Source: an uncultured Pelagibacteraceae bacterium
GTDB taxonomy: Bacteria > Pseudomonadota > Alphaproteobacteria > Pelagibacterales > Pelagibacteraceae
Assembly (NCBI GenBank): GCA_902590395.1
Contig: CACIWQ010000004.1
Location: forward strand, 5,001 to 69,000
Direction of reading: 5' to 3'
Length of the DNA: 64,000 bases
In this document: positions 208-42,177 of the stretch, one piece after another
Numbering within the stretch: the stretch's first letter is position 1
Layout of the letters: each line of letters starts with the position of its first letter
The notes under the pieces: generated by a model
The model's database searches: none
What the model saw: the letters and a program-made list of their open reading frames with translations, nothing else
What the model was told of the DNA's origin: nothing
Position numbers and translations under genes: made by a program

Positions 208-1977
208 ATGAAAATATTAGTAACAACAAGTTTAGAAGAAACACACGGGAAAGCAGAAGAGATTCTTTTTGCTGGAGACTGGGTAAAATCTAGCTTAAAT
301 TTTGAAAAAGATTTTAGTAACAGAAAATTTAGTTTTTTCGACTCAATTTGGAAAAATGAAGAAGATATCAAAAAATTTCATTACTACTTAAGCGAACTAA
401 GGGACGGATTAGTAGAAAAATTATCTTTTAATTTAAATAAAATTCACAAAACAAATTATCCTAATAGATTTTGGAAAATATTAATTAATCCTTGGCTACA
501 TTATTATTTAGAAGGAACTTATACAAGATTTGAAACTATAAATAGAATTTTAGATAAAAAAGAATATTTTAATTTTATTTATCTTAATAATTTAAAAAGT
601 TTAGACGCTCCATTTGATGTAAGAGATTATAGCGATTATAATAGAGATTCAGATATTTATAATCAGTTTATTTTTCAAAAAATAATTAGTTATTTTAATG
701 ATATTAAAAAAAATAAATTTTTAAAGTTAATTTATTCAAATAAAGAAATAGCAAGAAAAGAAAATCTAAATTATTTAAACCAAAATGAAAAACAAAATTT
801 ATTGAGAAAATCTTTAAATTTTTTTTTAAAGAGATTATCAAAAAATAACAGATTTTTTATTGAGCTTAATTCAATGGGATCCTATTTTGTGCTTTTGAAT
901 CTTAAATTAGGACAAATACCATTTAAAGATTATGAGTTTTTTAATTATAAAAATTATTATCAATTATTAAAAAATAAAAGTAAATCAGATTTTAAACTTA
1001 GAAAAAAAATTTTAATTGATTTTAACAAAAATAATGAATTTGAAAATTATTTAAATGAAAACTTTTTTCAAGACATTCCAACTTTTTTATTAGAGGATTT
1101 TTCTTCTTTCCAAAAATTTACAAAAAAAATTCCATATAAATCAGAAGTAATTGTTTCTGATATAAAGCATGAGCATGACACAATATTTAAATTTTGGATG
1201 GCAAATAGTGTAGTTAATGGTTCAAAATTAATAACATCTGATCACGGCGGAAACTATGGTGGAATATTTTGGCATTCAATAATGCACGAGGATATTTCTG
1301 ACTTTACAATTAGATGGTTTAAACCCATCAAAAAAAATAATATTCAATTGCCGGTTCTGCATCTTCTGAGCAAGCAAAGAAAAAATAAAAATAATAGAAA
1401 ATATTTATTGACTATAGGCTTCGGGGGAACAAAATATCCCAAAGATATCTTCATCGGACCTATTTCTGGACAAATCTTATACCAAGTAGATCAATTAGAT
1501 AGTTTTTATAAAAACTTGAATATTGAATTAAAAAATAGTTTTTTTTATAGACCAAATAGATATGACCATGATTGGAACTTTCAAAAAAGGCTAGAGCCAT
1601 TATTTAAAAATAAAATAATACCCTCTACAAAAAAATATTTACATTATTTTAAAATGTCTAAAGTTATAGTTTGCACTCAACCAAAAACGGCTTTTTGTGA
1701 GTCAATGGTAACGGGACCTACCGTCTTACTCACAAAAGAAAAATATCATAAAAATAGAGACGAGTTTAAAGAATTGCACGAAAGTTTACGCAAAGCAAAA
1801 ATTTTGTTTGAAGATCCAATTGAGGCATCAAAGCATTTAAACAATGTGTGGAAAAATGTAGATGATTGGTGGGAAAGCGAAGTTGTGGTAGATGCTAGAA
1901 AAAAATTTATGAAAGAAGCTGCTCTTATAGAAACAAATGCTTTAGAAAAATGGAAAAATTTTTTTCAAAGTTTATAA
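208..1977 (+). CDS. LIC12162-family putative transferase
   Basis: The 589-residue protein begins 'MKILVTTSLEET', the hallmark opening of the LIC12162 family. These are putative transferases usually found in LPS O-antigen or flagellin-glycosylation loci and often next to nonulosonate genes. No transmembrane segment is obvious. The C-terminal third ('CTQPKTAFCESMVTGPTV') looks like the nucleotide-sugar-binding half of a GT-B-type fold. The ATG at 208 is chosen because an ATG six bases upstream runs straight into a stop. It sits downstream of operator site 1 and converges on pseC/pseI-like genes, which suggests transfer of a nonulosonic acid or related sugar. The molecular activity of the family is not established. 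Confidence 0.65.
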   Translation: MKILVTTSLEETHGKAEEILFAGDWVKSSLNFEKDFSNRKFSFFDSIWKNEEDIKKFHYYLSELRDGLVEKLSFNLNKIHKTNYPNRFWKILINPWLHYYLEGTYTRFETINRILDKKEYFNFIYLNNLKSLDAPFDVRDYSDYNRDSDIYNQFIFQKIISYFNDIKKNKFLKLIYSNKEIARKENLNYLNQNEKQNLLRKSLNFFLKRLSKNNRFFIELNSMGSYFVLLNLKLGQIPFKDYEFFNYKNYYQLLKNKSKSDFKLRKKILIDFNKNNEFENYLNENFFQDIPTFLLEDFSSFQKFTKKIPYKSEVIVSDIKHEHDTIFKFWMANSVVNGSKLITSDHGGNYGGIFWHSIMHEDISDFTIRWFKPIKKNNIQLPVLHLLSKQRKNKNNRKYLLTIGFGGTKYPKDIFIGPISGQILYQVDQLDSFYKNLNIELKNSFFYRPNRYDHDWNFQKRLEPLFKNKIIPSTKKYLHYFKMSKVIVCTQPKTAFCESMVTGPTVLLTKEKYHKNRDEFKELHESLRKAKILFEDPIEASKHLNNVWKNVDDWWESEVVVDARKKFMKEAALIETNALEKWKNFFQSL

Positions 1978-1980
1978 ATT

Positions 1981-3177
1981 TTATTTTGTTGAGATAATCG
2001 AATTTACCTTATTTATCACATAGTTTACTTCGTTTTTTTTCAAATTTGCAAAAATTGGTAAACTTAAACATCTATCATAATATTTTTCTGCAAAAGGAAA
2101 TTGCCCCCTTTTAAAACCATATTTTTTTAAGTAATAAGGCTGTAAATGAACCGGTATGTACAATACTTGCGTTCCAATATTATTTTTCTTTAAAACTTTC
2201 ATGATTTCATTTCTACTTTTACCCAATTTTTTAAAATTTATTAATATTGTGTATAAATGATAAGCATGTTTTACATCAGAATTTTCAATTGGTGTTTCAA
2301 TCAAATCATTTTTAGCAAAACCTTCGTTGTATATTTTTGCAACTTTTCTTCTTAAGTTTATAAATTTATTGATTTTTTTAAGCTGACTTTCTCCTAGCGC
2401 GGATTGTATATCTGTAATTCGATAATTATAGCCCAATTCATTCATTTCATAATACCACATGTTTGGATTACCTTTTTTGTCAAAAGCTATTTTTTTGTTA
2501 TAAAAATCGTTTGTATTTTTGTGTATGCCATGACTTCTTAAATTTAATAATTTTTTATAAGTATTTTTATTATTTGTTGTTATCATTCCTCCCTCACCCG
2601 TTGTTATTGATTTTATGGGGTGAAAACTAAAAGTAGATAAATCGGAATATTTACAAGATCCAATTTTAGTATTTTTGTAGAAACCACCTAAAGCGTGACA
2701 AGCGTCTTCAATAACATGAAAATCGTATTTTTTTTTTAATTTGTAAATTTCTTGTAAGTTTGCTGGATGGCCTGACATATGAACAACAACAACAGCATCA
2801 ACCTTTTTTTTTATAAGAATTTTCTTTAGAGATTCAATCGAAATACAAAAAGTTGAAGGATCTATATCTGCAAAAAGAGTTTCAGCTCCTACATACTGAG
2901 CGCAATTTGCTGAAGCAACAAATGTAATTGTTGAAGTAAGTAATTTTTTTCCGGGGCCTAAATTCAATGCCAAACATGATAGATGTAAGGCCGCTGTTCC
3001 ATTGGAACATGCAACTGCATATTTGGCACCGACATATTTTGCAAATTTTATTTCAAAATTTTTAACATTTGGTCCTTGGGTAATAAAATCATTCTTTAAC
3101 ACCCTAGATACTTTTTTTATATCACTTTGATCTATTGATTGACGGCCATATGGTAAAAATCTTTTACTTTTTTTCAT
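1981..3177 (-). CDS. DegT/DnrJ/EryC1/StrS aminotransferase, PseC-like
   Basis: This is a PLP-dependent sugar aminotransferase of 398 residues, the usual length for the family. It has the 'TAALHLSCLAL' cofactor pocket, 'VIEDACHALGG' for the PLP-binding Asp, and the Schiff-base lysine in 'FSFHPIKSITTGEGG'. PseC-type enzymes aminate C4 of a UDP-4-keto-6-deoxy-N-acetylhexosamine during pseudaminic acid synthesis. The start codon overlaps the stop of the upstream NeuB/PseI-like gene by 4 bases, so the two are translationally coupled. Assignment to PseC rather than another StrS aminotransferase rests on similarity and on the neighbouring PseI-like gene; pseB, pseG and pseF are not visible in the window. 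Confidence 0.75.
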   Translation of the reverse strand: MKKSKRFLPYGRQSIDQSDIKKVSRVLKNDFITQGPNVKNFEIKFAKYVGAKYAVACSNGTAALHLSCLALNLGPGKKLLTSTITFVASANCAQYVGAETLFADIDPSTFCISIESLKKILIKKKVDAVVVVHMSGHPANLQEIYKLKKKYDFHVIEDACHALGGFYKNTKIGSCKYSDLSTFSFHPIKSITTGEGGMITTNNKNTYKKLLNLRSHGIHKNTNDFYNKKIAFDKKGNPNMWYYEMNELGYNYRITDIQSALGESQLKKINKFINLRRKVAKIYNEGFAKNDLIETPIENSDVKHAYHLYTILINFKKLGKSRNEIMKVLKKNNIGTQVLYIPVHLQPYYLKKYGFKRGQFPFAEKYYDRCLSLPIFANLKKNEVNYVINKVNSIISTK

Positions 3178-4187
3178 TTGTCATTAAAAACGTTTTTTTT
3201 AATTGGGTTTCCATAACTAATATTTATAGGAGATTTTTTATTTAGTAATTTTTCATAATAGATAGGAGGCAGACCATAACCTGGCCTAATTCTTCTCACG
3301 TTTTTCTTGGTAAATTTTTCTCCTTTTCTAATATTTTTTGATGCAAAAATTGAACGTCTAAAAACTTTGCTTTTATTCTCAGATTTATTTCTATAAAAAT
3401 ATTTTTTACCCATCAGTTTATAAACTTCATTTATTTTAGATCTAAATTTTTTAATTTCTTTACCTTTTAACGAAAAAGCTATATCGATTCCTTTTTTCTG
3501 ATTATCAAGAGCTATGTGTTTTTCAATTATTTCTGCTCCAGCCGCAACAGCAGCGACCGCAACCTTATCATCTTTTGAATGATCAGAAAGACCAATTCTA
3601 CATTTAAATCTTTCTTTTAATATTTTTATATTATTTAAATTGAAATCTTCGTTACTAGATGGATAATTACTAACACAGTATAATAACGTAATATCTTTGG
3701 CCCCGTATTTTTTGGCTATTTTAACGGTTCTATCTATATCGTGAAGACTTGCCATTCCAGTAGAAATAATCATTGGCTTTTTTGTTTTAGCAATTTTTTT
3801 AATTAAAGGAATGTCGGTCATTTCAAATGAAGCAACTTTATATATTGGGCATTTTAATTTTTCTAAAAAATCTACCGCAGTTTCATCGAATGGAGTGCTA
3901 AATATTTTTATCTTAATTTTTTTTGCATATCGAAAAAGTTTTTTATGCCAAGCTAAAGGCGTTTTTGCTTTATTGTACAAATCCCACAAATTATAACCCT
4001 TCCACAGACCGTGTTTTATTTTAAAATATTTTTTGTTTGATCTTAAAGTCATAGTATCTGCAGTGTAGGTTTGCAATTTTACGGCGTCCGCTCCATTAAT
4101 CTTTGCGCATTTAATCAATTTAATGGCTTTCTTTAAGCTTCCGTTATGGTTTGCTGATATTTCTGCTACTAAAAGGGGTTTTTGCAT
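3174..4187 (-). CDS. pseI: NeuB-family nonulosonate synthase, PseI-like
   Basis: The 337-residue protein has an N-terminal NeuB TIM barrel (about residues 5-245) and a C-terminal SAF/antifreeze-like domain (about 275-335). It condenses phosphoenolpyruvate with a 6-carbon amino sugar to make a 9-carbon sialic-acid-like sugar. 'AEISANHNGSL', 'DAVKLQTYTADTMT' and 'KTPLAWHKKLF' resemble pseudaminic acid synthase (PseI) more than NeuB proper. It is the first gene of a two-gene minus-strand operon with the PseC-like aminotransferase. Its start lies 53 bases from operator site 2, so it is a likely regulon member. PseI versus LegI cannot be settled by eye. Confidence 0.75.
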   Translation of the reverse strand: MQKPLLVAEISANHNGSLKKAIKLIKCAKINGADAVKLQTYTADTMTLRSNKKYFKIKHGLWKGYNLWDLYNKAKTPLAWHKKLFRYAKKIKIKIFSTPFDETAVDFLEKLKCPIYKVASFEMTDIPLIKKIAKTKKPMIISTGMASLHDIDRTVKIAKKYGAKDITLLYCVSNYPSSNEDFNLNNIKILKERFKCRIGLSDHSKDDKVAVAAVAAGAEIIEKHIALDNQKKGIDIAFSLKGKEIKKFRSKINEVYKLMGKKYFYRNKSENKSKVFRRSIFASKNIRKGEKFTKKNVRRIRPGYGLPPIYYEKLLNKKSPINISYGNPIKKNVFNDK

Positions 4188-4966: not shown

Positions 4967-6265
4967 ATGAAAAAAAATAGAAAAAAAGTTTACGTAGGTT
5001 TATCCGCAGATATATTACATAATGGTCACATAAATATTTTAAAAGTTGCCAATAAACTTGGCGACGTAACTGTGGGTTTGTTAACCGATACAGCTATTTC
5101 AGAATATAAAAAATTCCCTCATTTAAACTACAAACAAAGATTGACAGTACTCAAAAGTGTAAAATATATTAAAAAAATTATTCCGCAAGAAACTCTAGAT
5201 TATTCAAAAAATTTAATAAAATTAAAACCAGATTTTCTAGTTCATGGTGATGATTGGAAAAAAGGAATCCAAAAATTAACAAGAACAAAAGCAATAGCTT
5301 GTCTTAAAAAATGGAGAGGTAAATTAATTGAACCTAAATATACTAAAAATATTTCATCATCCTTAATCAAAAAAAAATTATCTGATTTAGGAACTACGCC
5401 GGATGTTAGACGAGCTAAGCTAAAAAGATTAATTCATGCCAAAGATATAGTAAGAATTATAGAAACACATAGTGCCCTATCTGGTTTGATAATTGAGAAA
5501 TTAAATTATAATAAAAGAAATAAGTATATTGAATTTGACGGTTTTTGGTCATCAAGCTTAACTGATTCAGCCTTACGAGGAAAACCTGATAATCAATCAG
5601 TAGATTACTCAACAAGAATGTTAGGCTTAAATGAAATTTTTGAAGTAACAACTAAACCATTAATTTTTGATGCAGATAATGGAGGTAGAGTAGAGCATCT
5701 ACCTTATTTAGTTAAATCACTAGAAAGGATAGGTGTTTCAGCAATAGTTTTAGAAGATAAAATAGGTCTTAAAAGAAACTCTTTATTTCAAGACCAACAA
5801 AAAACAAAGCAGGATACAGTCAAAGGATTTTGTAAGAAAATTGAAATTTCAAAAAAATCTAAAGTAACAGATGATCTTATGATAGTTGCTAGAATCGAAA
5901 GTTTTATACTAGGAAAAACACTTAATGACGCTTTAAAAAGAGCAGAAGCTTATTCTAGAGCTGGTGCAGATGCGATTTTAATTCACAGTAAAGAAAAAAA
6001 TGCCAATCAAATATTTACATTTTCCAAAAAATTTTTGAAAAGCAAATATTACAAACCCCTAATAGCCGTTCCCTCTACATATTCAAAAACATATGAACGT
6101 GACTTAATAAACAACGGATTTAAGGTTGTTATTTATGCCAATCATCTTTTGAGAGCGTCTTACCCAGCAATGCTAGATGCTGCTAAAAAAATCTTAATAA
6201 AGCAAAGATCTTTTGAGGCCGAAAGAAAAATAAGCCCAATAAACAAAGTACTAAATCTTATTTAG
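4967..6265 (+). CDS. pepM: Cytidylyltransferase-PEP mutase fusion
   Basis: Two domains are fused in 432 residues. Residues 5-135 are a nucleotidyltransferase with the HxGH motif 'HNGH' near residue 18 and 'SSSLIKKKL' near the end of the domain. Residues 150-430 are phosphoenolpyruvate mutase of the isocitrate-lyase superfamily, with 'DADNGG' and the diagnostic EDK-X5-NS motif 'EDKIGLKRNS' at about residue 263. That motif separates true PEP mutases from lyase relatives. The mutase forms phosphonopyruvate, the first C-P bond step. Fusion with a CTP-transferring domain is known and implies that the final phosphonate is activated as a CMP derivative for transfer to a lipid or glycan. The next gene (ppd) starts 2 bases after the stop. 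Confidence 0.92.
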   Translation: MKKNRKKVYVGLSADILHNGHINILKVANKLGDVTVGLLTDTAISEYKKFPHLNYKQRLTVLKSVKYIKKIIPQETLDYSKNLIKLKPDFLVHGDDWKKGIQKLTRTKAIACLKKWRGKLIEPKYTKNISSSLIKKKLSDLGTTPDVRRAKLKRLIHAKDIVRIIETHSALSGLIIEKLNYNKRNKYIEFDGFWSSSLTDSALRGKPDNQSVDYSTRMLGLNEIFEVTTKPLIFDADNGGRVEHLPYLVKSLERIGVSAIVLEDKIGLKRNSLFQDQQKTKQDTVKGFCKKIEISKKSKVTDDLMIVARIESFILGKTLNDALKRAEAYSRAGADAILIHSKEKNANQIFTFSKKFLKSKYYKPLIAVPSTYSKTYERDLINNGFKVVIYANHLLRASYPAMLDAAKKILIKQRSFEAERKISPINKVLNLI

Positions 6266-6267
6266 CT

Positions 6268-7371
6268 ATGATTTTTGTTAAAGAACTATTAGCTACATTG
6301 AAAAAAAATAAAGTTAATTTTTATGCCGGTGTTCCTGATAGTGTTTTAAAAAATTTATCAATTTATTTCAATAAGTTGGGTAAAAACAAACATATTATAG
6401 CGGCAAATGAGGGGTCAGCCGTTTCCCTAGGCATAGGTCATTATTTGGCTACAAAAAAAATTCCTTGTGTGTATTTACAAAACTCCGGTTTAGGAAATGC
6501 AATAAATCCAATAATTTCTATAGCACACAAAAAAGTTTACTCAATTCCATTGCTACTTATGATTGGGTGGAGGGGATCTTATGGTCAAAAAGATGAACCA
6601 CAGCACGAAGCAAAAGGTAAAATTACCCCAAGCCTGCTAAAATTACTGGGTATAAAATATTGTGTATTACAGAAAAAAAAGGATTTAACCAAGCTTAATA
6701 AATTAATAAAAGGGGCATATAAAACTAAAAAAATTGTTGCATGCTTAATTGAGAGAAATATTCTTAAAACAGATTTAAAAGAAAATATATCAAAAAAAAC
6801 TAAAAGTTCTTTTTTAAGAAAAGATTTTATAACTGAACTTTTAAAACAAATTTCAGTAAATTCAAAAATAATTTCTACAACAGGGTATACATCTAGAGAA
6901 CTAATGCAAATTAGAAAAGAAAAAAAATTATTCAAAGGACAGGATTTTTATATGGTAGGTGGTATGGGACATGCCTCAATGGTTAGTTTAGGATTTTCAA
7001 TGAATTCAAAAAAACAAACTATTTGTTTAGATGGAGACGGTTCAATCCTTATGCACCTAGGATCTCTAAGAACTTTAGGATATTTAGGTAATTCTAATTT
7101 AAAACACATATTACTAAATAATAATTCACACGAATCTGTAGGAGGCCAGCCTACTACAGCAAAAGGAATTGATTTTAAAAAATTATCAAAAACTTTTGGT
7201 TATAAAAAATATTATAAAATTTTAAAAAGAGAAAATGTTAAGCGAGAAATTAAAAATTTTCTTAAATCTGAAGGTCCAAGTTTTCTAGAGGTAATAATTT
7301 CTACCGGCACCTTAAAAAATTTATCCAGACCAAATAATTTAATTAAAATAAAAAAAAAATTTATGGAGTAA
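6268..7371 (+). CDS. ppd: Phosphonopyruvate decarboxylase
   Basis: This is a thiamine-diphosphate enzyme of 367 residues that decarboxylates phosphonopyruvate to phosphonoacetaldehyde and so drives the unfavourable PEP mutase step. N-terminal features are 'FYAGVPDSVLKNL' and the activating-Glu segment 'AANEGSAVSLGIGHYLA'. The ThDP/Mg motif starts at 'DGDGSILMHLGSL' near residue 255, followed by 'LNNNSHESVGGQPT', typical of Ppd and its sulfopyruvate decarboxylase relatives. Placement directly after pepM and before the Fe-ADH makes Ppd much the better call. Confidence 0.92.
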   Translation: MIFVKELLATLKKNKVNFYAGVPDSVLKNLSIYFNKLGKNKHIIAANEGSAVSLGIGHYLATKKIPCVYLQNSGLGNAINPIISIAHKKVYSIPLLLMIGWRGSYGQKDEPQHEAKGKITPSLLKLLGIKYCVLQKKKDLTKLNKLIKGAYKTKKIVACLIERNILKTDLKENISKKTKSSFLRKDFITELLKQISVNSKIISTTGYTSRELMQIRKEKKLFKGQDFYMVGGMGHASMVSLGFSMNSKKQTICLDGDGSILMHLGSLRTLGYLGNSNLKHILLNNNSHESVGGQPTTAKGIDFKKLSKTFGYKKYYKILKRENVKREIKNFLKSEGPSFLEVIISTGTLKNLSRPNNLIKIKKKFME

Positions 7372-7374
7372 AAT

Positions 7375-8490
7375 TTGAAAAATTTAACATTATCAACTGA
7401 AAATGATCTAGAAAATTTTATTAAAAGCAAAAAATATATGAAAGTTTTTGTTATATCAGGAAAGAAATCTTATACAATTTCTGGAGCAAGTCATCTTTTA
7501 AAAAAAATTTTAAAAAAAAAAATAGTAAAATTTTACTTAAAAAATTCCTCATATCCTGAAATTTCTGAACTTAAAAAAATAGTTTTTTCAATAAAAGATT
7601 TTTTGCCTGATTTGATATTAGCTGTCGGAGGAGGCTCGGTTATTGATTATGGAAAAATAGCAAATGTAGTGCAAAATATTACAAATTTAGAAAAACATAT
7701 AATTAATTCGAGCTTTAAATTTAAAAAAAAATATACCCAATTAGTTGCAATTCCAACAACTGCTGGCTCAGGCGCCGAAGTAACATCAAATGCTGTTATT
7801 TATATTGATAAAATAAAATATTCTTTAGAAAACAAATTAATAAAACCTGATCGTTTTTTTTTAATACCTGAGCTGGTAGTTAACTCTTCAAAAAAAATAA
7901 AAGCGGCAGCGGGTTTTGATGCTATTGCTCAAGCAGTTGAGTCCCTTATTTCAAAAAAATCAAATTATCAAAGTGCTTACTATGCAAAAAAATCTTTAAA
8001 TATTTCACTTAAGTATTATCTAGAGTATTTAAAAAGGCCAAATATTGAAAATTCAACGGCAATGTGTCTGGCTGCTAACTTAGCAGGTAAAGCAATCAAT
8101 ATTTCAAAAACTACAGCTCCTCATGCGGTCTCCTATCCTTTTGCATCTTTATATGGCTTAAGTCATGGACACGCTGTTTCTCTTACAATTGAGAAATTTC
8201 TTAAGTTTAATTACGTCAACCATAACTCCGCGAAATGCAATTTTGATTTACAATCAAGATATAAAAATATTTTCGAAATATTTAAAGTTAAAAATATTCT
8301 TGAATTGGAAAAATTATTTATAGATATGAAAAGTAAAGCTAATTTAATAGATGATTTCAAAAAGCTTAAAATTAATTTGAATACTCAATTAGATAAAATA
8401 ATCGATGGTGTAAATTTACAAAGATTAAGAAATAATCCTGTAGATTTGAACAAAAAGGACGTAAAAACAATATTGCTTGGATTTAATTAA
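7375..8490 (+). CDS. Iron-containing alcohol dehydrogenase, probable phosphonoacetaldehyde reductase
   Basis: A group III Fe-alcohol dehydrogenase of 371 residues. It has the NAD(P)-binding 'AVGGGSVIDYGK' near residue 85, 'IPTTAGSGAEVTSNAV' near 128, and metal-site histidines in 'APHAVSYPFASLYGLSHGHAVS'. After pepM and ppd, the known route for this family is reduction of phosphonoacetaldehyde to 2-hydroxyethylphosphonate (PhpC-type). The start is TTG, 3 bases after the ppd stop; no better in-frame ATG precedes the conserved region. A phosphonate-specific role is inferred from operon context. Confidence 0.8.
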   Translation: MKNLTLSTENDLENFIKSKKYMKVFVISGKKSYTISGASHLLKKILKKKIVKFYLKNSSYPEISELKKIVFSIKDFLPDLILAVGGGSVIDYGKIANVVQNITNLEKHIINSSFKFKKKYTQLVAIPTTAGSGAEVTSNAVIYIDKIKYSLENKLIKPDRFFLIPELVVNSSKKIKAAAGFDAIAQAVESLISKKSNYQSAYYAKKSLNISLKYYLEYLKRPNIENSTAMCLAANLAGKAINISKTTAPHAVSYPFASLYGLSHGHAVSLTIEKFLKFNYVNHNSAKCNFDLQSRYKNIFEIFKVKNILELEKLFIDMKSKANLIDDFKKLKINLNTQLDKIIDGVNLQRLRNNPVDLNKKDVKTILLGFN

Positions 8491-8549: not shown

Positions 8550-8876
8550 ATGGAAAACGATAAAGATAAAGACGGTTTTAATATATTAAGGAAGATACAT
8601 AAAAAACCTCACTACTCTCAAAGAGATATAGCTAATGATCTCGGTTTGAGTTTGGGAAAAATAAACTATTGTTTAAAAGAATTAAAGAAAAAGGGACTAA
8701 TCAAAATTAATAATTTTAAAAAAAATAAAAAAAAAATTAATTATATTTATTTACTTACACCTAAAGGCATAGCCTTTAAAACAAAAACTACAGTAAATTT
8801 TATGAAGTTAAAAATGAAAGAGTATGACGAGCTTAAAAAAGAAATAAAGACTGACAAAAAAAACTTATCAAATTAA
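8550..8876 (+). CDS. MarR-family EPS-associated transcriptional regulator
   Basis: A 108-residue winged-helix protein. 'HYSQRDIANDLGLSLGKINYCLKELKKKGLI' (about residues 21-51) is the helix-turn-helix, followed by a Lys-rich wing and 'YLLTPKGIAFKT', a typical MarR-type ending. It matches the short MarR-type regulators found in exopolysaccharide and LPS clusters. Its start lies 12 bases downstream of a perfect palindrome that recurs upstream of four other envelope operons here, so it is the probable local regulator. Whether it represses or activates, and its effector, are unknown. Confidence 0.8.
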   Translation: MENDKDKDGFNILRKIHKKPHYSQRDIANDLGLSLGKINYCLKELKKKGLIKINNFKKNKKKINYIYLLTPKGIAFKTKTTVNFMKLKMKEYDELKKEIKTDKKNLSN

Positions 8877-10646: not shown

Positions 10647-11477
10647 TTATTTGATTTTTAAAACTAATTTTTCGATAAATTTTTTAAAGTACACTAAATA
10701 AAAACCACCCAAGAAAATCATAATTAATCTAAAAAGTATTAAATAGTATATAAAGTTTGAAAGAATAATTTTATCATAACCAATTTCTATTAAAATTATC
10801 AATCCGATGAAATCTACTGTTCTAGCTCTATCATCAAGGAAACTTTGAAAAAAATTTTTTAAAAAAATTAAAAAACCTGAAATTTCATTTTCTTTATTGC
10901 TAATTTTATTTTTTATATTTTTAGATTTTACAATGGATTTTTTATTTTTATAAAATTTATACATTAAGTGATGGTAAGTATAATCTTTTATATCAAGAGC
11001 TTTAGTTGTGATTATCAATATCATGCAATATACAAAATGAATTTCTTGTGTAGAATTATACAAATACATTCCTAAACCGATTAAAAAACTAAACGACCCT
11101 ACAAGTCCACCCCACGAATCTAAAACATCACCCAACTCAGAAGTTTGTTTTTTTAATCTTGCTAAGAGTCCATCACTCCAATCAAATATTCCTTTAAAAA
11201 AAAATACAATTACACCAGTTACAATCATAATTTTTGATTCTGAACTTAATAAAATACCACCGATGACTCCTGACAAGGCGTAAGACAAAGAAATCCAATT
11301 TGGTTTTATTGGAGTATGTTGTATAAAAAACACAAAAAGAGCAGAAAGTTCAATTATGATTCTCGACTTGAGCGCGTTATAAGGAGAATGTAACCAGTCA
11401 TCAATATCTGCATTAGCTTCCCTGGTCAGTTTTCTTTGGGTTTTATAGTGAGCTTTTCTAATATTAATATAATTCAT
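10647..11477 (-). CDS. CDP-alcohol phosphatidyltransferase-family protein, variant active site
   Basis: The 276-residue membrane protein carries most of the CDP-alcohol phosphotransferase signature: D99-x2-D102-G103-x2-A106-R107, then G116-x3-D120. The final catalytic Asp (expected at 124) is Gly ('GDVLDSWGG'). Hydrophobic helices flank the motif and continue to the C-terminus. Family members transfer a phospho-headgroup from a CDP-alcohol to a lipid or polyol. Here a CDP-activated phosphonate would be a natural donor, given pepM 4 kb away. Its start lies 47 bases from operator site 4. The missing Asp means it may be inactive or may use altered chemistry. Confidence 0.75.
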   Translation of the reverse strand: MNYINIRKAHYKTQRKLTREANADIDDWLHSPYNALKSRIIIELSALFVFFIQHTPIKPNWISLSYALSGVIGGILLSSESKIMIVTGVIVFFFKGIFDWSDGLLARLKKQTSELGDVLDSWGGLVGSFSFLIGLGMYLYNSTQEIHFVYCMILIITTKALDIKDYTYHHLMYKFYKNKKSIVKSKNIKNKISNKENEISGFLIFLKNFFQSFLDDRARTVDFIGLIILIEIGYDKIILSNFIYYLILFRLIMIFLGGFYLVYFKKFIEKLVLKIK

Positions 11478-11599: not shown

Positions 11600-12670
11600 T
11601 TGATAAAAACATTTAGGAATAAAAATGTTGTTGTAACTGGGCATACCGGATTTAAGGGATCATGGTTAGTGGCCTGGCTACACTTGTTGGGGGCAAATAT
11701 AATGGGCATATCACTAGATCCCACCTCTAAACCATCTCACTTTGAATCTTTAAAAATTTCAAAAAAAATAATTGATGTAAGACTAAATTTATTAAATTTA
11801 AAACAACTTAAGAAAAAAATTTCAAATTTTAAACCAGATTTCGTTTTTCATTTGGCAGCACAATCAATTGTAAGTAAATCTTATAAAGAACCCTTATTGA
11901 CCTGGCATACAAATTTAATTGGTACTTTAAATGTTTTGGAGGCTTTAAAAAGTTTAAATAAATTCTGCGTTGGCGTAATAATAACGAGCGATAAGTGCTA
12001 TAAAAATTTCGAAATTTCAAAAGGTTACAAAGAAACAGATATACTTGGTGGCGACGATCCCTATAGCGCATCAAAAGGAGCTGCTGAAATTGCAATTAAT
12101 TCATATATTAAATCTTTTTTATACAATAACAAAAAATTTAGAATCGCTAGCGCAAGAGCAGGAAATGTTATTGGCGGGGGAGACTGGAATTCAAGCAGAA
12201 TTATTCCCGATTGTATTAGAGCAGCAATAAAAAACGATACTGTAAAAATTCGCAATTTAAATGCAACCAGACCTTGGCAGCATGTAATAGAGTTAATTTA
12301 TGGATATCTTCTTTTAGCAAAAAAATTAAAAAATAATTCTAATATTCATGGAGAATCATTTAATTTTGGTCCACGCGAAAATTTAAATTATTCAGTTTTA
12401 GATGTTTTGAAAGAAATTAAAAAAAATTGGAAAAATTTTAAATGGAAAAAAATTAAATTTAAAAAAAATAAACTCAAAGAAGCTAAATTATTAAGTCTTA
12501 ATTGCAAAAAAGTTAATAAAATTTTAAAATGGAAACTATCTATGAATTTTTCTCAAACAATTAAAACTACAATAGAATGGTATAAAAATTACTACAATAA
12601 AAAAGAAAATGCTTTTTTAATTACATCTAAACAAATTAAAGAATATCAAAAAAAAATAGAAAAATTTTAA
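11600..12670 (+). CDS. rfbG: CDP-glucose 4,6-dehydratase
   Basis: A 356-residue extended short-chain dehydrogenase that converts CDP-D-glucose to CDP-4-keto-6-deoxyglucose. It has the NAD-binding 'VTGHTGFKGSWL' at residue 12, the RfbG-type 'SLDPTSKPSHFE', catalytic 'YSASKGAAE' near residue 155 and 'NVIGGGDW'. The start is TTG (TTGATAAAAACA); translation from it gives the conserved N-terminus and no ATG fits. RfbF, the enzyme making its substrate, is two genes downstream, so the pathway is coherent. Confidence 0.92.
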   Translation: MIKTFRNKNVVVTGHTGFKGSWLVAWLHLLGANIMGISLDPTSKPSHFESLKISKKIIDVRLNLLNLKQLKKKISNFKPDFVFHLAAQSIVSKSYKEPLLTWHTNLIGTLNVLEALKSLNKFCVGVIITSDKCYKNFEISKGYKETDILGGDDPYSASKGAAEIAINSYIKSFLYNNKKFRIASARAGNVIGGGDWNSSRIIPDCIRAAIKNDTVKIRNLNATRPWQHVIELIYGYLLLAKKLKNNSNIHGESFNFGPRENLNYSVLDVLKEIKKNWKNFKWKKIKFKKNKLKEAKLLSLNCKKVNKILKWKLSMNFSQTIKTTIEWYKNYYNKKENAFLITSKQIKEYQKKIEKF

Positions 12671-12683
12671 AAAATAGAAATAC

Positions 12684-13400
12684 ATGTTAAACGAAAAAAT
12701 TGCAGAAAAAAAAATAGATAATAACTTGGTATTAGCGGCTAATATTTTTTACAAACATAAAATAGATTATTGGTTTTGTCACGGAACACTTTTGGGTATT
12801 GTTAGGGACAAACAATTAATTGAGTGGGACCCAGACATTGACGTTGCTATTTGGGAAGAATCGGTTTCTAGAAGAAAAATCACAGAAATTATGACTATAA
12901 ATAATTTTAAACTTAAGACAGATTCTTTTTTTATTGGAGATAATTTATTAAGCTTTACTAAAGAAGGTGGAAGAAAAGTAGATATTCATTTCTATAAAAA
13001 AATGTATGATAAAATTAAGAATCAACATATGGCTGTTGTTTACATGTCATATTTACCGAAAAATATTTTTTTTAAAGTTTTGGATGTTCTTTCTATTGCT
13101 AAAACATATAGAGGAAAATATAAACTTTTTGTAAAAATATTTGGTATTTTTCAATCTTTCTTCTTATTTTTTAAAACAAAGCTAGTAAAAAAAAATATTT
13201 TTTACAAATCAGCTGGTTATTGTGAACCAATGGAACTTTTAAATGAATTCAAAGAAATTGAATTTTTTAATACTAAAGTAATTATACCTTCTAAATCCGA
13301 AGAGTGTTTGGAGTATATATATGGACAAGATTGGAAGATTCCAAAAAAAGACTTTTATTATGCGGAAGAGCGAAAAAATAGCCCAACAACAATAACTTGA
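12684..13400 (+). CDS. LicD/fukutin-family nucleotidyltransferase-like transferase
   Basis: A 238-residue protein with the LicD-type core 'WFCHGTLLGIVRDK' followed by 'WDPDIDVAIWEE' (about residues 31-57) and 'GRKVDIHFY'. The Asp pair in 'DPDIDVAI' is the metal site of this superfamily. LicD proteins transfer phosphocholine, and fukutin-like relatives ribitol phosphate, from a CDP donor onto a sugar. In this cluster, which encodes cytidylyltransferases fused to or co-regulated with phosphonate enzymes, a plausible donor is a CMP-phosphonate. It sits between rfbG and rfbF in a tight operon. The true donor and acceptor are not evident from sequence. Confidence 0.7.
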   Translation: MLNEKIAEKKIDNNLVLAANIFYKHKIDYWFCHGTLLGIVRDKQLIEWDPDIDVAIWEESVSRRKITEIMTINNFKLKTDSFFIGDNLLSFTKEGGRKVDIHFYKKMYDKIKNQHMAVVYMSYLPKNIFFKVLDVLSIAKTYRGKYKLFVKIFGIFQSFFLFFKTKLVKKNIFYKSAGYCEPMELLNEFKEIEFFNTKVIIPSKSEECLEYIYGQDWKIPKKDFYYAEERKNSPTTIT

Positions 13401-13401
13401 C

Positions 13402-14115
13402 ATGCAAAATAAATATAAAAATATGAAAGTTGTTATACTAGCAGGTGGTTTTGGCACCAGACTATCAGAATATACAAAAACAATTCCAAAACCCATGATT
13501 AATGTTGGTGGCAAGCCAATACTTTTACATATTATGAAAATGTATGCCAAATATGGCTTTAAAGACTTTTACATTGCATTGGGATACAAGGGAAAAATAA
13601 TCAGAAATTTTTTTAAGAAAAGTATTTATGACTGGAATATTAATCTTATAGATACTGGAAAAAACACCATGACTGGCGGAAGATTAAAAAAATTAAAAAA
13701 ATATATTGGGAAAGAAACTTTTTTTATGACCTACGGAGATGGATTGTCAAATATAAACTTAAAAAAATTATTGAAATTTCATAAGAAAAAGAAAAAGTTG
13801 GTAACGTTAACCGCTGTAAGACCACCAGCTAGATTTGGAGCTCTTAAACTTAAAGGTCAGAACGTAAGTTATTTTAAAGAAAAATCAAGGGTCGACGAAG
13901 GATGGATAAACGGTGGTTTTTTTGTCATGGAGCCTGAATTTTTAAAGTTTATTAAAAGTGATAGCACTTATCTTGAACGTGAACCTTTGGAAAAAGCAAC
14001 TAAAAAAAAGGAATTAGTTGCATATAGACATGAAGGATTTTGGCAGTGCATGGACACAAAAAGAGATATGGATAAGTTAAATCAAATTATAAAAAAAAAG
14101 AAAATTAAATTTTGA
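13402..14115 (+). CDS. rfbF: Glucose-1-phosphate cytidylyltransferase
   Basis: Makes CDP-glucose from CTP and glucose-1-phosphate, the substrate of RfbG upstream. 'MKVVILAGGFGTRLSEYTK' is the nucleotidyltransferase signature, followed by 'KPMINVGGKPILLHIMKMYA' and 'TYGDGLSNI' for the metal-binding Asp. ATG 13402 directly follows the licD-like stop. ATG 13423 is an alternative that begins exactly at the conserved MKVVILAGG, giving about 230 residues. The 3' end overlaps the next gene by 4 bases. Confidence 0.92.
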   Translation: MQNKYKNMKVVILAGGFGTRLSEYTKTIPKPMINVGGKPILLHIMKMYAKYGFKDFYIALGYKGKIIRNFFKKSIYDWNINLIDTGKNTMTGGRLKKLKKYIGKETFFMTYGDGLSNINLKKLLKFHKKKKKLVTLTAVRPPARFGALKLKGQNVSYFKEKSRVDEGWINGGFFVMEPEFLKFIKSDSTYLEREPLEKATKKKELVAYRHEGFWQCMDTKRDMDKLNQIIKKKKIKF

Positions 14116-15026
14116 ATCCAAAAAAAGAAATATTGATTGTAGGTGGTACTGGTTTTATTGGCTATCATTTAGCTAAAAAAGCTCTAAAAAAAGGGTGGAC
14201 AGTCACTAGCATATCATCAAAGAAACCAAAAAAAATAAGATACTTACCAAAAATTAAATATATAATTTGCGATATTACAAAAAAACAACTTTTAAAAAAA
14301 AAAATTAATAAAAATTTTGACTATGTGGTAAATCTCGGTGGTTATGTAGATCATAAGAATAAAAGTAAAACTTTCAAAAGTCATTATATAGGTTGTAAAA
14401 ATTTAGTACAAATCTTTTTAGAAAGACCACCAAAAAATTTTATTCAAATGGGTAGTAGTGTAGAATATGGAAACTTAAAGTCACCTCAAAGGGAAAATTT
14501 TAAATTTAATACGAAATCAATTAAGTCGACATATGGAAAAGCTAAATTATTATCATCTAAATATCTTACAGATTTAAACAAAAAAAAACTTTTCCCATCT
14601 ACAATTTTACGTTTGTATTTAGCCTATGGTCCCAGGCAAGACATAAATCGATTTCTTCCAATTATAATAGCTGGGTGTTTAAAAAATAAAAAATTTCCAT
14701 GCTCTAATGGAAATCAGTTAAGAGACTTTGTACACGTAGATGATGTTGTAGAAGCGATAATCAAATCATTAAATAGCAAAAAAGGGGTAGGGCAAATAAT
14801 TAATATAGGATCAGGAAAACCAAAAAAAATTAAAAATATAATTGAAAATATAAGAAAAATTTTAATGAGAGGGAGACCTCAATATGGAAAAATTAAATTA
14901 AGAAGAGATGAAATTTTAAAACTATACCCAAGCATAGCAAAAGCTAAGCAAAAGATTAACTGGAGGCCAAAAATTTCTTTTGAACAAGGCCTTAAATCAA
15001 CAATTAAATTTTATGCAAACCAATAA
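14112..15026 (+). CDS. NAD-dependent epimerase/dehydratase (CDP-sugar reductase/epimerase-like)
   Basis: A 304-residue extended SDR with 'IVGGTGFIGYHLAKKAL' at the N-terminus, catalytic 'STYGKAKLLSSKYL' (YxxxK) near residue 140 and 'RDFVHVDDVVEAI'. It probably acts on CDP-4-keto-6-deoxyhexose, reducing or epimerising it like RfbJ or paratose synthase. The TTG start overlaps the rfbF stop by 4 bases. No RfbH-type CDP-4-keto-6-deoxyglucose 3-dehydrase is visible in the cluster, so a 3-deoxy product is not indicated; a plain CDP-6-deoxyhexose is more likely. Confidence 0.75.
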   Translation: MNPKKEILIVGGTGFIGYHLAKKALKKGWTVTSISSKKPKKIRYLPKIKYIICDITKKQLLKKKINKNFDYVVNLGGYVDHKNKSKTFKSHYIGCKNLVQIFLERPPKNFIQMGSSVEYGNLKSPQRENFKFNTKSIKSTYGKAKLLSSKYLTDLNKKKLFPSTILRLYLAYGPRQDINRFLPIIIAGCLKNKKFPCSNGNQLRDFVHVDDVVEAIIKSLNSKKGVGQIINIGSGKPKKIKNIIENIRKILMRGRPQYGKIKLRRDEILKLYPSIAKAKQKINWRPKISFEQGLKSTIKFYANQ

Positions 15027-15924
15027 ATTTAAAGATCAAAGTTTAGTTAGCGTCATAATGAATTGTTATAATGGAGAAACTTACCTTACCGAAAGCATTA
15101 AAAGTGTCATAAATCAAACTTACAAAAATTGGGAGTTAATTTTTTGGGATAATAGATCAACAGATAAAAGCGCAGAAATATTTAAAAGTTTTGATGACCC
15201 AAGATTAAAATATTTTCAATCAGAAGAGCATACAACTTTATATTTAGCTCGAGATCTAGCCATAAAGAAAACCAAAGGAGAATTTATAGCTTTTCTAGAT
15301 ACTGATGATTGGTGGTATCATCAGAAATTAGAGAAACAATTAACTAGATTTAATAAAGATAATATAGGGTTAGTTTTTTCTAATTTATTTTTTTATTATC
15401 AAAAAAGTGGAAAAAAAAAAATTTTTTCAAAAAAAAAATTGTATACAGGATCTGTTAGAAATAAAATTATTAAAGATTATCAAGTTGGACTCCAAAGCGT
15501 GATAATAAGAAAAAAAGCTTACGTAAATGCCCCAAATGGTTTTGACAGTAAATATAATATTATAGGGGATTTTGATTTTTTTGTTAGGTTAAGCGAAAGC
15601 TGGAATTTTGATTGTGTCCAAGAACCTTTAGCATATTACCGCATTCATGATAAAAATTTTTCTGATAAGAATATTGATTTAGAAATTAATGAACTTAAAT
15701 ACTGGCACGATAAATATATTGCTAATAATTTTTTAAATAAATCTGAATCTAACTATTTGATATCTAATATTGAGTATCTAAAATGTAAAAAATTAATTTC
15801 AAAAGGCAAAAGATTAAATGCACTATTTGGCATTTTTTTAATGAAAAATATTTCTTTTAAAATAAAACTATTATTAAGAATTTTGTTGCCCAATTTCTTA
15901 ATTATATGGTTTCAGAAATTTTAA
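15013..15924 (+). CDS. Family 2 glycosyltransferase
   Basis: GT-A glycosyltransferase with 'VSVIMNCYNGETYLTESIKSVINQTYKNWELI' at the N-terminus and the metal-binding DxD-type 'FLDTDDWW' near residue 90. It adds a sugar to the surface glycan from a nucleotide donor. The ORF track opens at 14980, but the ATG at 15013 lies just before the conserved domain and reduces the overlap with the upstream SDR gene from 47 to 14 bases, so I prefer it (about 303 residues). It ends the rfbG operon and converges on the SIS gene. Confidence 0.85.
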   Translation: MQTNKFKDQSLVSVIMNCYNGETYLTESIKSVINQTYKNWELIFWDNRSTDKSAEIFKSFDDPRLKYFQSEEHTTLYLARDLAIKKTKGEFIAFLDTDDWWYHQKLEKQLTRFNKDNIGLVFSNLFFYYQKSGKKKIFSKKKLYTGSVRNKIIKDYQVGLQSVIIRKKAYVNAPNGFDSKYNIIGDFDFFVRLSESWNFDCVQEPLAYYRIHDKNFSDKNIDLEINELKYWHDKYIANNFLNKSESNYLISNIEYLKCKKLISKGKRLNALFGIFLMKNISFKIKLLLRILLPNFLIIWFQKF

Positions 15925-19045: not shown

Positions 19046-20443
19046 TTAATTAATTTTTTCTTTTCCTTTATTTGCCAGAAGTAAGGAAATGATCAGCCAT
19101 ATAAATGTTGCATTCCAGGTAGAAAAAAAACTTCCAGAAGATCTTAAAGGCCAAATTTCAAGAAAAATAGTAATTACAAGAGGTGCCAAAAAAAACATTT
19201 CAAAATTTGTCCTTCGACCATATCTCATAAAGTAGTAGAAAAAATCTTTCCAAAAGATTATAAAAAGAATCAATAATAAACCTCCACCAATAACTCCTGA
19301 CTCGGCCAAAAGTTCCAGATAATAATTGTGAGGATGGTTAGAACAAGCTAAGTATTTTTTGCTACTTTTCATAATATTATAGGTACCATCAGTTAAGTTG
19401 TGCCAACACTTAACTCTAAAAGATTTTAAACCAAATCCAAATAAAGGCTGGTCTTTCCAAACCAATACAGCATTACTAAAAATATAATAATGTCCACTGC
19501 CTCGCAGAAGCGAAAGTTTCTTTTTGCTTCTTGTTTTTTCTGACTGTTCCAACTCCTCTTGTTGTTGCTCTATTACTTTCTTGCTTATTTCTTCGCGTTC
19601 TATAAAATTAAACCTGACATTATCGTAAAAACTTCTGTAACTTTTTTTAATATGAGCATCATTTTGAGCAATAACAAAAGACACACCCACAAATCCAATC
19701 ATTCCCAAAATCATCGCAATTCTTAAATTTTTTATAAACAAAAATGTTAGACCACATCCAAACAAGAACAACAAAGTAGACATTCTATTACCCGCTAATA
19801 GCATAGCAACTGCATGAACTATTATTACCAAGATCAATAAAGGGTTTTTATATTTTTTATTTTCAAAAATAATTAAGAGTGAAAAAAAGGAAAAAAATGA
19901 AAATCTCTGTAAATATCCACCTGCAATAGTTTCCTCTCCAAATGGACCAGAATTTCTATTTCCAACACTTTTGAATCCGAACAAGTCAGTCCCGGTTATG
20001 TATTGTAATATGATGTCTAGGCTTACAAAAGTTGTAAAACACAGAGTAAATAAAAATAATTTTTTTAAATTAATTATTTTATTTAAAAATAAAGTATCAA
20101 CAATTAATATTAAAATTGGAAATCTAAATAAAAGAAAGGCTTTAAAAATTGGATTGTCCTCTAGTGAAGTTCCTTCATATTTATGGAATAATCCGGGACT
20201 TTGATAAAGCAAAGGTTTAAGTAAAATAATGTTTTGATATTGAATCGCAGTTATCAAAAAGAAATATAAAAAAAAGATAATTGCTATCCAAGAGGTAATT
20301 TTAAATCTTAAAGCTAATTTATCTTTTTTTATTAAAAATAAAGATAAAATTATAAAAAGTAATAAATGCGCACTTACAACTAAATTTCCAAGTATAAATG
20401 TAACAGGAAAGATGTAGAATAAAATTTCGACTATTTTACGCAT
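19046..20443 (-). CDS. O-antigen ligase (WaaL/Wzy-type)
   Basis: A 465-residue polytopic protein (about 11-12 helices). The Wzy_C-type large periplasmic loop lies at about residues 270-380 and ends in 'CSNHPHNYYLELLAESGVIGG', the H-x(2)-N-x(2)-L-type ligase motif. 'FGFGLKSFR' precedes it. It joins lipid-linked O-chain or sugars to lipid A core at the outer face of the inner membrane, or polymerises O-units. It is downstream of the transaldolase-like gene on the same strand. Confidence 0.8.
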   Translation of the reverse strand: MRKIVEILFYIFPVTFILGNLVVSAHLLLFIILSLFLIKKDKLALRFKITSWIAIIFFLYFFLITAIQYQNIILLKPLLYQSPGLFHKYEGTSLEDNPIFKAFLLFRFPILILIVDTLFLNKIINLKKLFLFTLCFTTFVSLDIILQYITGTDLFGFKSVGNRNSGPFGEETIAGGYLQRFSFFSFFSLLIIFENKKYKNPLLILVIIVHAVAMLLAGNRMSTLLFLFGCGLTFLFIKNLRIAMILGMIGFVGVSFVIAQNDAHIKKSYRSFYDNVRFNFIEREEISKKVIEQQQEELEQSEKTRSKKKLSLLRGSGHYYIFSNAVLVWKDQPLFGFGLKSFRVKCWHNLTDGTYNIMKSSKKYLACSNHPHNYYLELLAESGVIGGGLLLILFIIFWKDFFYYFMRYGRRTNFEMFFLAPLVITIFLEIWPLRSSGSFFSTWNATFIWLIISLLLANKGKEKIN

Positions 20444-39851: not shown

Positions 39852-40799
39852 ATGACGCTTTCAGATCAACAAAAGAAAGAAATATTAGAACAACAAAATC
39901 AAAAAAATACCACAAAAAGAGTCACATCACCTGAACTTGAAAAAATTCTTTACGAAGCTTTACCAGTTCTCGATCATGGATTTGTGAGAGTAGTAGATTA
40001 TATGGGTGATGATAGTTCTATTGTCCAGGCCGCTAGGGTTTCCTATGGAAAAGGTACAAAAAAAGTTTCAACAGATAGTGGTTTGATAAAATATTTAATG
40101 AGACATAGGCATAGCACTCCATTTGAAATGTGTGAAATAAAATTTCATGTCAAATTACCAATTTTTGTTGCAAGACAATGGATTAGGCACAGAACAGCAA
40201 ATGTTAATGAATATTCTGCCAGATATTCGATTTTGGACAAAGAATTTTATCTGCCTTCCAAAGAAAACCTTGCGGCGCAGTCTACAAGCAACAGACAGGG
40301 TAGAGGAGATTTAATAAATGGAAAACAAGCAGATAATATTTTAAAAATTTTGAAAAAAGATGCAGAACAAACTTATGCAGACTATGAGATTTTGTTAAAT
40401 GAAAAATATGACGGAAGCACAATCGATAAAAATAATAAAGGTTTGGCTAGAGAATTAGCTAGAATGAATTTGACTTTAAATACTTATACTCAATGGTATT
40501 GGAAAACAGATTTATTAAATTTATTAAATTTTTTATCTTTAAGAGCCGACAGCCATGCCCAATATGAAATAAGGGCATATGCGGATGTTATGATTGATTC
40601 TTTAAAAAGATGGGTGCCTATAACTTTTGATGCTTTTATGGATTATAGGATAGGAGGAATGGAATTATCAGCAAAAGGCAAAGCGGTAATCGTTAAAATG
40701 ATGAAAGGACAAAATTGTGATTTTAAATCCTCCAATCTTTCAAAAAGAGAATGGAATGAACTGATGGAGTCTTTCGGTTTTAAAGAAAAGATTTGCTAA
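39852..40799 (+). CDS. thyX: FAD-dependent thymidylate synthase
   Basis: 315 residues. It has the ThyX motif RHRxxSxxxxSxR-like '[14 protein letters not shown]' near residue 112, preceded by '[20 protein letters not shown]'. It makes dTMP from dUMP using methylene-tetrahydrofolate and FADH2, replacing ThyA. Its end overlaps the convergent cytidylyltransferase gene by 4 bases. Confidence 0.95.
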
Positions 40800-41194
40800 A
40801 TTAATTTAAAACCACTTCGTGATTTTTTTCTCAATAAACTAGCGCTAACATTTTTTGTTCTCTTTAAAATTTTTACATACTTTTTATCAAGTGAATTTTT
40901 ATTATCCGAGCCGTGTATCATTAGATCAAATTTGTGTTTTTTAAAAAATTTATTGTCTATATTGAAGTTACATTTTATTACGCCAGAGACATATTTAATT
41001 GATGATATAATTTCCTTTCTACTTTTAAAGTTTAACAAAGGGCCATATTTTTTATATTTTTTGATTTCCTTATCTGAGGTAAGCCCAACGTAAACTTTTC
41101 CGTGTGCAGAAGCTTTTTTAAGCAATCTAATATGACCGTGATGTAGAATAGATACAGACATATCTACTAATATTTTTTTTTTCTTTTTTTTCAT
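40796..41194 (-). CDS. Stand-alone cytidylyltransferase (TagD/LicC-like)
   Basis: 132 residues of a single CTP-transferase domain: '[21 protein letters not shown]' with HxGH, '[20 protein letters not shown]', '[10 protein letters not shown]' and the C-terminal '[12 protein letters not shown]'. It resembles the N-terminal domain of the pepM fusion in order and spacing. It is coupled (TAATG) to the class V aminotransferase and lies downstream of operator site 5. By analogy with AEP cytidylyltransferases paired with AEP transaminase, it may form CMP-2-aminoethylphosphonate; that is inference. Confidence 0.8.
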
Positions 41195-42177
41195 TATTTA
41201 ATAGAAATTTTTTTTAATATTTCAGCTTTTGCGGCTTTACCCAAATGCGCTTCACCTAAATGACAAACCACGCTACCCGGTAAAGTATTTCTAGCTTTAT
41301 AAAAAATTACTCTTTTATCTTTCGCTTTTAATTTGCAAGTCGTATACGTACAAAGCAAGGGTTGATTTTTTTTGCCAAATATTAATTTACTATCAAAAAT
41401 TTTCATAAATTTATTTTTATTAATCCTAACAGAGTAAGCAAAATTATTATGGTTTGCCAAAATTTTTTCTAATGATTGAATGGAGTGATAAGGTCCTGTC
41501 ATTCTTTTTTGGATATGCGAGTTTATATCTAAATTAAAAGAAGAAACCTCATTTTCAGGATTATGGTTATATGAAACAAAACAAGCTCCAGTTAATCCAA
41601 ATAATCCCTTACAAGAACTAAAAGAAATAACATCAGCTAATTCATGCGACGATTCTAATCCTATTGAAGCAGTTGCATCTAAAGCCAATTTAGCTTTCAC
41701 TTTTTTTGAAAATTTTTTAAGTTCTACAATTGGTATTTTTAAACCGCAACTAGTTTCAGTAGGACATGCCCAGACCCAATCAAATTTCCCAGAAAAATTC
41801 TCTAAATCTTTCCAATGTACTTTTGAGATTTTGCGTATTTTTTTTAAATTTTTTTTAGCATTTAAACACATTTTAAAAAGTCTATCGGAGTAATAACCTG
41901 TAGATACAATTAAAATTTTGCCGTATAAGAAATTTAAGGAAACAACTTCTAAAGCAAAGCTGCCAGAACCCTGCATGCGTACCACTTTTTTTTGTCCACT
42001 AATTTTTTTTAATTTTGAAAGAACTTTTTCCTCGACTTTTATGTACTCTGAATCATTTCGACCAAAACAAGGACCAAGACCTGATAAATTTTCTGCCACT
42101 AGACTGGAGGGTCCAGCAGTAAACAGAAACTTTTTACTGTTTTTATTACTTACAAAATCTTTTAATTTTTTTTCCAC
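41194..42177 (-). CDS. Class V aminotransferase, 2-aminoethylphosphonate transaminase-like
   Basis: 327 residues of fold-type I PLP enzyme: 'FLFTAGPSSLVAENLSGLGP' start, 'GSGSFALEVVSLNFL', 'LALDATASIGLESSHELAD' (PLP Asp) and Schiff-base Lys in 'ISFSSCKGLFGLTGACF' near residue 198. Layout matches the PhnW/serine-glyoxylate/AEP transaminase group. With phosphonoacetaldehyde made by Ppd, it could form 2-aminoethylphosphonate. The start is GTG at 42177, 23 bases downstream of operator site 5. It forms a two-gene unit with the cytidylyltransferase, inserted between thyX and mrp. Substrate is inferred from regulation and partner. Confidence 0.72.
   Translation of the reverse strand: MEKKLKDFVSNKNSKKFLFTAGPSSLVAENLSGLGPCFGRNDSEYIKVEEKVLSKLKKISGQKKVVRMQGSGSFALEVVSLNFLYGKILIVSTGYYSDRLFKMCLNAKKNLKKIRKISKVHWKDLENFSGKFDWVWACPTETSCGLKIPIVELKKFSKKVKAKLALDATASIGLESSHELADVISFSSCKGLFGLTGACFVSYNHNPENEVSSFNLDINSHIQKRMTGPYHSIQSLEKILANHNNFAYSVRINKNKFMKIFDSKLIFGKKNQPLLCTYTTCKLKAKDKRVIFYKARNTLPGSVVCHLGEAHLGKAAKAEILKKISIK

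Follow-up and report, generated by a model that had tools for sequence, protein, structure and literature searches.

The window, by which we mean the whole stretch of 64,000 nucleotides analysed here (contig C4, positions 5001-69000), belongs to a 0.93-Mb assembly of 28% GC that is 73% complete and closely related to Pelagibacteraceae single-cell genomes. At positions 12684-13400 of the plus strand lies a gene with an ATG start encoding a LicD-family phosphotransferase of 238 amino acids. In a profile search the protein scored 47.6 bits against the Pfam LicD family (PF04991), exceeding the cut-off of 22.6; the match covers the N-terminal core alone (residues 24-63). This core carries the motif GTLLG-x2-R-x6-WDPDID, whose residues R41, W48, D49, D51 and D53 are invariant in all 21 LicD relatives aligned. 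Among NCBIfam models the top match was the Mycoplasma cholinephosphotransferase Mf1 (NF045866), at 62.6 bits, under its equivalog cut-off of 225.

LicD is the second gene of a run of five on the plus strand. It is preceded by a CDP-glucose 4,6-dehydratase gene (11600-12670; TIGR02622, 446.5 bits against a cut-off of 278.45) and followed by the gene for an RfbF-like glucose-1-phosphate cytidylyltransferase (13402-14115; TIGR02623, 297.4 bits, just under the cut-off of 300.25). Next come an NAD-dependent epimerase/dehydratase that probably finishes the CDP-deoxyhexose (14112-15026; PF01370, 151.5 bits) and a family 2 glycosyltransferase (GT2) that presumably transfers the CDP-hexose (14980-15924; PF00535, 108.5 bits). 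The spacings between the genes as called are 13, 1, -4 and -47 bp. The original prediction of a LicD-like transferase embedded in a CDP-hexose operon is thus borne out by five tightly packed genes of one strand, with the dehydratase and the cytidylyltransferase on either side of LicD. A further gene, on the minus strand (10647-11477; PF01066, 48.2 bits), encodes a membrane protein of the CDP-alcohol phosphotransferase family. Such enzymes let an alcohol displace CMP, which is the same type of chemistry as that of LicD.

The window's pepM gene and LicD belong to separate operons. The former (4967-6265, plus strand) encodes a cytidylyltransferase fused to phosphoenolpyruvate mutase (TIGR02320, 356.9 bits against a cut-off of 319.55; PF01467, 55.3 bits). 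Its sequence includes the motif EDKIGLKRNS, and the fusion is predicted to form the C-P bond and probably also a CMP-phosphonate. On the same strand lie the genes for a phosphonopyruvate decarboxylase (Ppd; 6268-7371; TIGR03297, 391.2 bits against 312.5) and an iron-containing alcohol dehydrogenase (Fe-ADH; 7375-8490; PF00465, 89.2 bits; TIGR03405, 117.5 bits, below cut-off). The latter is a probable phosphonoacetaldehyde reductase of the HEP arm, an assignment based in part on its position after ppd. About 35 kb from pepM, on the minus strand, a stand-alone cytidylyltransferase (CyT132; 40796-41194) is paired with a PhnW-like aminotransferase (41194-42177; TIGR03301, 61.3 bits, below cut-off), the probable AEP arm. 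CyT132 scores 46.8 bits with TIGR01518, so far under the cut-off of 165.4 that by this model it is not a glycerol-3-phosphate cytidylyltransferase. Neighbour maps of other SAR11 genomes show a CyT132 homologue adjoining PhnW-like, PepM and LicD genes; the PhnW-like gene is operonic with PepM/PPD at loci L044, L105 and L111, and the pair is so at these three and at L171. Since homologues of both genes neighbour PepM and LicD in other SAR11, the window appears to hold parts of both the HEP and the AEP arm. Two cytidylyltransferases are also present in many LicD-bearing SAR11 clusters.

Other genes near the left end of the window deserve mention. A 589-residue protein encoded at 208-1977 (plus strand) gave no Pfam match; relatives with 22-34% identity recur across many of the pepM/LicD clusters fetched. 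PseC (492 bits) and PseI (444 bits), each above cut-off, are encoded at 1981-4187 on the minus strand. With this pseudaminic acid pathway adjoining the phosphonate genes, some of the CMP-linked chemistry at the locus may have nothing to do with phosphonates. A MarR_EPS regulator is encoded at 8550-8876 (plus strand; TIGR04176, 128.2 bits against 88), copies of which, 57-73% identical, are found near several phosphonate/LicD clusters.

Co-occurrence and linkage of LicD with pepM

Orthologues of LicD (E <= 1e-6) were found in 10 of 247 genomes of the same family, spread over five genera. Eight of these ten contain pepM, against 32 of the 247 genomes overall (31 PEP mutases above cut-off and one truncated match; Fisher p = 1.3e-6, with no correction for shared ancestry). 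A contig scan added seven SAR11 single-cell genomes with LicD, every one of them carrying a PEP mutase above cut-off, which brings the SAR11 LicD genomes with pepM to 15 of 17, a count likewise uncorrected for shared ancestry. One cluster is common to genomes G200 and G230, and another to G187, G095, AG-905-M18 and AH-287-F17. The original prediction had left it to such a survey to show whether the orthologues track pepM or choline kinase genes; they follow pepM and not choline kinase (see below). LicD was found without pepM in G210 (80% complete) and G119 (55% complete). At the G210 locus (L045, 9068-16457) LicD lies near a methyltransferase, a GT2, an extra AroB-like enzyme and a PseF-like CMP transferase (53.9 bits, below cut-off).

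Among the 32 SAR11 genomes with pepM, 24 gave no LicD orthologue, indicating that phosphonate use does not depend on LicD. Three loci (L097, L098 and L099) carry divergent SAR11 pepM genes scoring 173-237 bits with the PepM profile. A ppd gene accompanies two of these, and a profile search detected no fused PF01467-type cytidylyltransferase in the three genes.

It seemed conceivable that LicD and pepM merely belong to the same surface-polysaccharide islands. This explanation was rejected. The CDP-glucose dehydratase, an island gene present in 112 of the 247 genomes, is weakly linked to LicD (p = 0.026) and shows no significant tie to pepM (p = 0.065), and only one of 12 genomes with distant PF04991 members (SAR11 plus a class-wide sample) has a genuine pepM. 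As the dehydratase does not track pepM significantly and the distant LicDs do not track it either, the link is not simply one of island membership. The class-wide sample, 337 genomes, contained distant LicDs and no close one beyond the host itself.

Physical linkage is frequent. In 11 of the 17 SAR11 LicD genomes pepM lies within 10 kb of LicD on one contig, and in SAG-MED11 the distance is 18.6 kb, the contig being taken as the same because of its equal length of 240,570. G255 and G261 have the two genes at contig ends that seemingly belong together; G154 has them on different contigs. Several LicD orthologues share an operon with pepM, ppd or a cytidylyltransferase, at spacings of -4 to 26 bp: LicD starts 6-9 bp past the end of PepM at L107 and L110, overlaps ppd by 4 bp at L114, and follows the PhnW-like and CyT132 genes at L111 (spacings -4 and 26 bp). 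The pairing of LicD with pepM recurs in five SAR11 genera, in Balneolota and in a gammaproteobacterium (L128). In Balneolales the PPD, FeADH and LicD genes are consecutive, with PepM 10 kb off, and in the gammaproteobacterium HKST-UBA179 LicD adjoins PepM-PPD.

Fold and phylogeny

An AlphaFold2 model of LicD, built from the 21 relatives, reached a mean pLDDT of 87.8. The top matches among solved folds were structures of the fukutin-related protein FKRP, a ribitol-phosphate transferase (Foldseek E 1.8e-5, probability 1.00, TMq 0.49, 13% identity), several of which contain CMP or CDP-ribitol; the lincosamide adenylyltransferase LnuA came next. FKRP was also the top PDB profile match (E 1.8e-7). 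The predicted nucleotidyltransferase-like fold and the putative Asp metal-binding motif thus place the protein in the LicD family as far as model and sequence go. Together with the invariant residues, the modelled fold supports a CMP-releasing phosphotransferase, the head group of which is not distinguishable from these features. Inspection of the LicD alignment by eye gave no consistent AEP- or HEP-specific residue difference.

In a 40-row PepM tree, 13 of the 15 LicD-linked PepMs fell within one group of 16 (support 100/99). The window's PepM lies in the other group, nearest to that of L054, within a mostly LicD-less clade; the window therefore presents an unusual combination, a LicD with a PepM from outside the usual LicD-linked clade. 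The idea that LicD is tied to a single PepM lineage was discarded, both the window's PepM and that of L125 standing outside the clade that holds the 13. In the LicD gene tree the pepM-linked copies did not stand apart from the unlinked ones (7 changes, close to the mean after shuffling).

A putative CMP-phosphonate:glycan transferase

To our knowledge, no enzyme has yet been proven to attach phosphonate to a cell-surface glycan. LicD is a strong candidate for such a transferase, and we consider it probable that its donor is a putative CMP-AEP and/or CMP-HEP rather than CDP-choline. PepM and Ppd would yield phosphonoacetaldehyde, to be converted to HEP by Fe-ADH or to AEP by the PhnW-like aminotransferase. 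The PepM-fused or the stand-alone cytidylyltransferase would then make the CMP-phosphonate, from which LicD would hand the phosphonate to a sugar hydroxyl with release of CMP. We infer that the CDP-derived deoxyhexose, presumably built and transferred by the operon partners, is the acceptor or a neighbour of it; the link to CDP-hexose genes is best read in this way, with the sugar of the operon receiving the phosphonate. As head group, AEP is weakly favoured over HEP, because the nearest LicD relatives on long enough contigs sit with PhnW-like and CyT132 genes.

The closest named model being a cholinephosphotransferase, albeit matched below cut-off, one might take LicD for an ordinary phosphocholine transferase with CDP-choline as donor. 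This is very improbable. The original prediction had noted that no choline kinase gene is visible nearby, and the observation holds for the host assembly at large (73% complete), where PF01633 and PF01636 gave no match. Five LicD genomes do match PF01633, which might have counted against a phosphonate donor. This objection was dropped once the match in G200 was typed with NCBIfam models as the homoserine kinase ThrB (348 bits against 271). The APH match in G007 is likewise ThrB, and that in G119 is AmgK-like, below cut-off. The remaining choline-kinase-like matches resemble the three that were typed in length and score. No choline kinase was thus recognised among the ten LicD genomes, the typed matches being homoserine kinase or AmgK-like.

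Alternatively, LicD might draw on the CDP-hexose of its own operon, moving hexose-1-phosphate, or on a donor such as CDP-glycerol, the linkage to pepM being secondary. CDP-hexose genes do accompany LicD at about 15 of the 17 SAR11 loci, and the same pairing, in the absence of pepM, is seen in a Rhodobacteraceae SAG and in Campylobacter concisus. However, LicD and pepM stand together without CDP-hexose genes in G156, Balneolales and HKST-UBA179, the common dehydratase is linked to LicD only weakly, and the GT2 of the operon already fits the transfer of CDP-hexose. As for CDP-glycerol, the gammaproteobacterial relative at L117 (35% identity) has, at a distance of 20 bp, a genuine glycerol-3-phosphate cytidylyltransferase gene (TIGR01518, 180.5 bits against 165.4), whereas the window's cytidylyltransferases fail this model. 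Altogether, such a donor seems improbable in the window. At L117 (8082-11376, a gammaproteobacterial SAG), genes for APS kinase, a sulfotransferase, the glycerol-3-phosphate cytidylyltransferase and the LicD relative are consecutive. The contexts at L117, in C. concisus and in the Rhodobacteraceae SAG suggest that the donor may vary with the neighbours, so that the LicD subfamily may accept whichever CMP-linked head group these make. In SAR11 the head-group-making neighbour is the phosphonate pathway.

A more serious competitor is encoded at 10647-11477. If the CDP-alcohol phosphotransferase were the phosphonate transferase, yielding a phosphonolipid or loading a lipid-linked glycan, LicD would use another donor or act in a second step. 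Orthologues of this enzyme were found in 13 of the 247 genomes, 12 of which have pepM (p = 3e-11), a tighter association than that of LicD. They occur in each of the eight sampled genomes with both LicD and pepM (LicD versus the 10647 enzyme, p = 2e-10), as well as in four that have pepM but no LicD orthologue. In G200, G230, G156, G007 and AG-325-A21 the enzyme shares a cluster with PepM/PPD and LicD. Against this, clusters of the G187/AG-905-M18 type have no 10647-type enzyme within 10 kb, while LicD is some 1 kb away from PepM and nearer still to CyT132; in G187 and G095 a separate contig carries the enzyme, next to genes for PhyH and a TylF methyltransferase, LicD staying by PepM. That the 10647 enzyme is the phosphonate transferase, with LicD in another role, appears rather unlikely. 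Both associations with pepM would be accounted for if each transferase served an acceptor of its own, and it is likely that LicD and the 10647 enzyme both use CMP-phosphonate with different acceptors, a matter that the genomic data do not decide.

The original prediction had called LicD the best candidate for the transferase that puts a phosphonate on the glycan. Its candidacy stands, given the tracking of pepM and the failure to recognise a choline kinase. The claim to be the best, or sole, candidate was too strong, since an enzyme of the same chemistry tracks pepM more tightly (12 of 13) and none of the eight LicD+pepM genomes lacks it; that the window's PepM belongs to a mostly LicD-less clade also weighs on it. 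We tentatively propose, at somewhat less than even chances, that a SAR11-centred LicD subfamily consists of CMP-phosphonate:glycan transferases whose acceptor is a CDP-derived deoxyhexose, and that a CDP-alcohol phosphotransferase works alongside them, drawing on a donor of this kind for a second acceptor. If so, this subfamily would be the missing last step in placing phosphonate on marine surface glycans. For the attachment step the analysis singles out two small, clonable candidates, marked by a clear genomic signature, in a bacterium common in the ocean.

Comparison with known systems

With the LicD phosphocholine transferases and Mf1 the window's protein has in common PF04991, the Asp-rich core and, by prediction, the CMP-releasing transfer of a head group to a sugar. 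It differs in that LicD-bearing SAR11 lack a recognised choline kinase, that phosphonate and CDP-hexose genes are the neighbours, and that the Mf1 score is under the equivalog cut-off. Mf1, a LicD relative, accepts both CDP-choline and CDP-ethanolamine (PMC11982090), and the use of more than one CDP head group counts in favour of a phosphonate donor. FKRP is the best fold match, but identity is about 13%, its donor is CDP-ribitol, and its length is almost double (solved chains of about 440-455 residues).

Phosphonates in the sea sustain the production of methane and the recycling of phosphorus, and SAR11 possesses genes for their synthesis (PMC8931226). According to a proposal by Acker et al. 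(2022; PMC8931226), SAR11 and Prochlorococcus have phosphonoglycoproteins. Their loci come from the same kind of organism and have pepM beside glycan and O-oligosaccharyltransferase-like genes, to which the Wzy_C gene at 19046 in the window is comparable. Their main text, however, names neither LicD, nor a CDP-hexose operon, nor a CDP-alcohol phosphotransferase as the phosphonate-attaching step. A literature search outside most subscription journals and supplements found no paper naming LicD and SAR11 together.

The Ppm/PntC clusters of Rice et al. (2019; PMC6697681) are alike in their PepM-cytidylyltransferase fusion, nearby LicD-like phosphotransferases and glycan genes. There, the characterised activating enzymes are LicC-like PF12804 proteins, whereas here PF01467 domains would serve for activation and LicD has its place in a CDP-hexose operon. 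Rice et al. called the steps past C-P bond formation enigmatic and did not settle the transfer step; in the AEP neighbourhoods of their three study organisms they noted LicD-like phosphotransferases or glycosyltransferases (PMC6697681). That LicD-like genes occur near pepM has thus been on record since 2019. What is seen here is that SAR11 LicD has the linkage to PepM and cytidylyltransferase that marks a phosphonyl-tailoring (Pnt) component, in 8 of 10 genomes of the family sample and 15 of 17 SAR11 genomes, and operonically in several.
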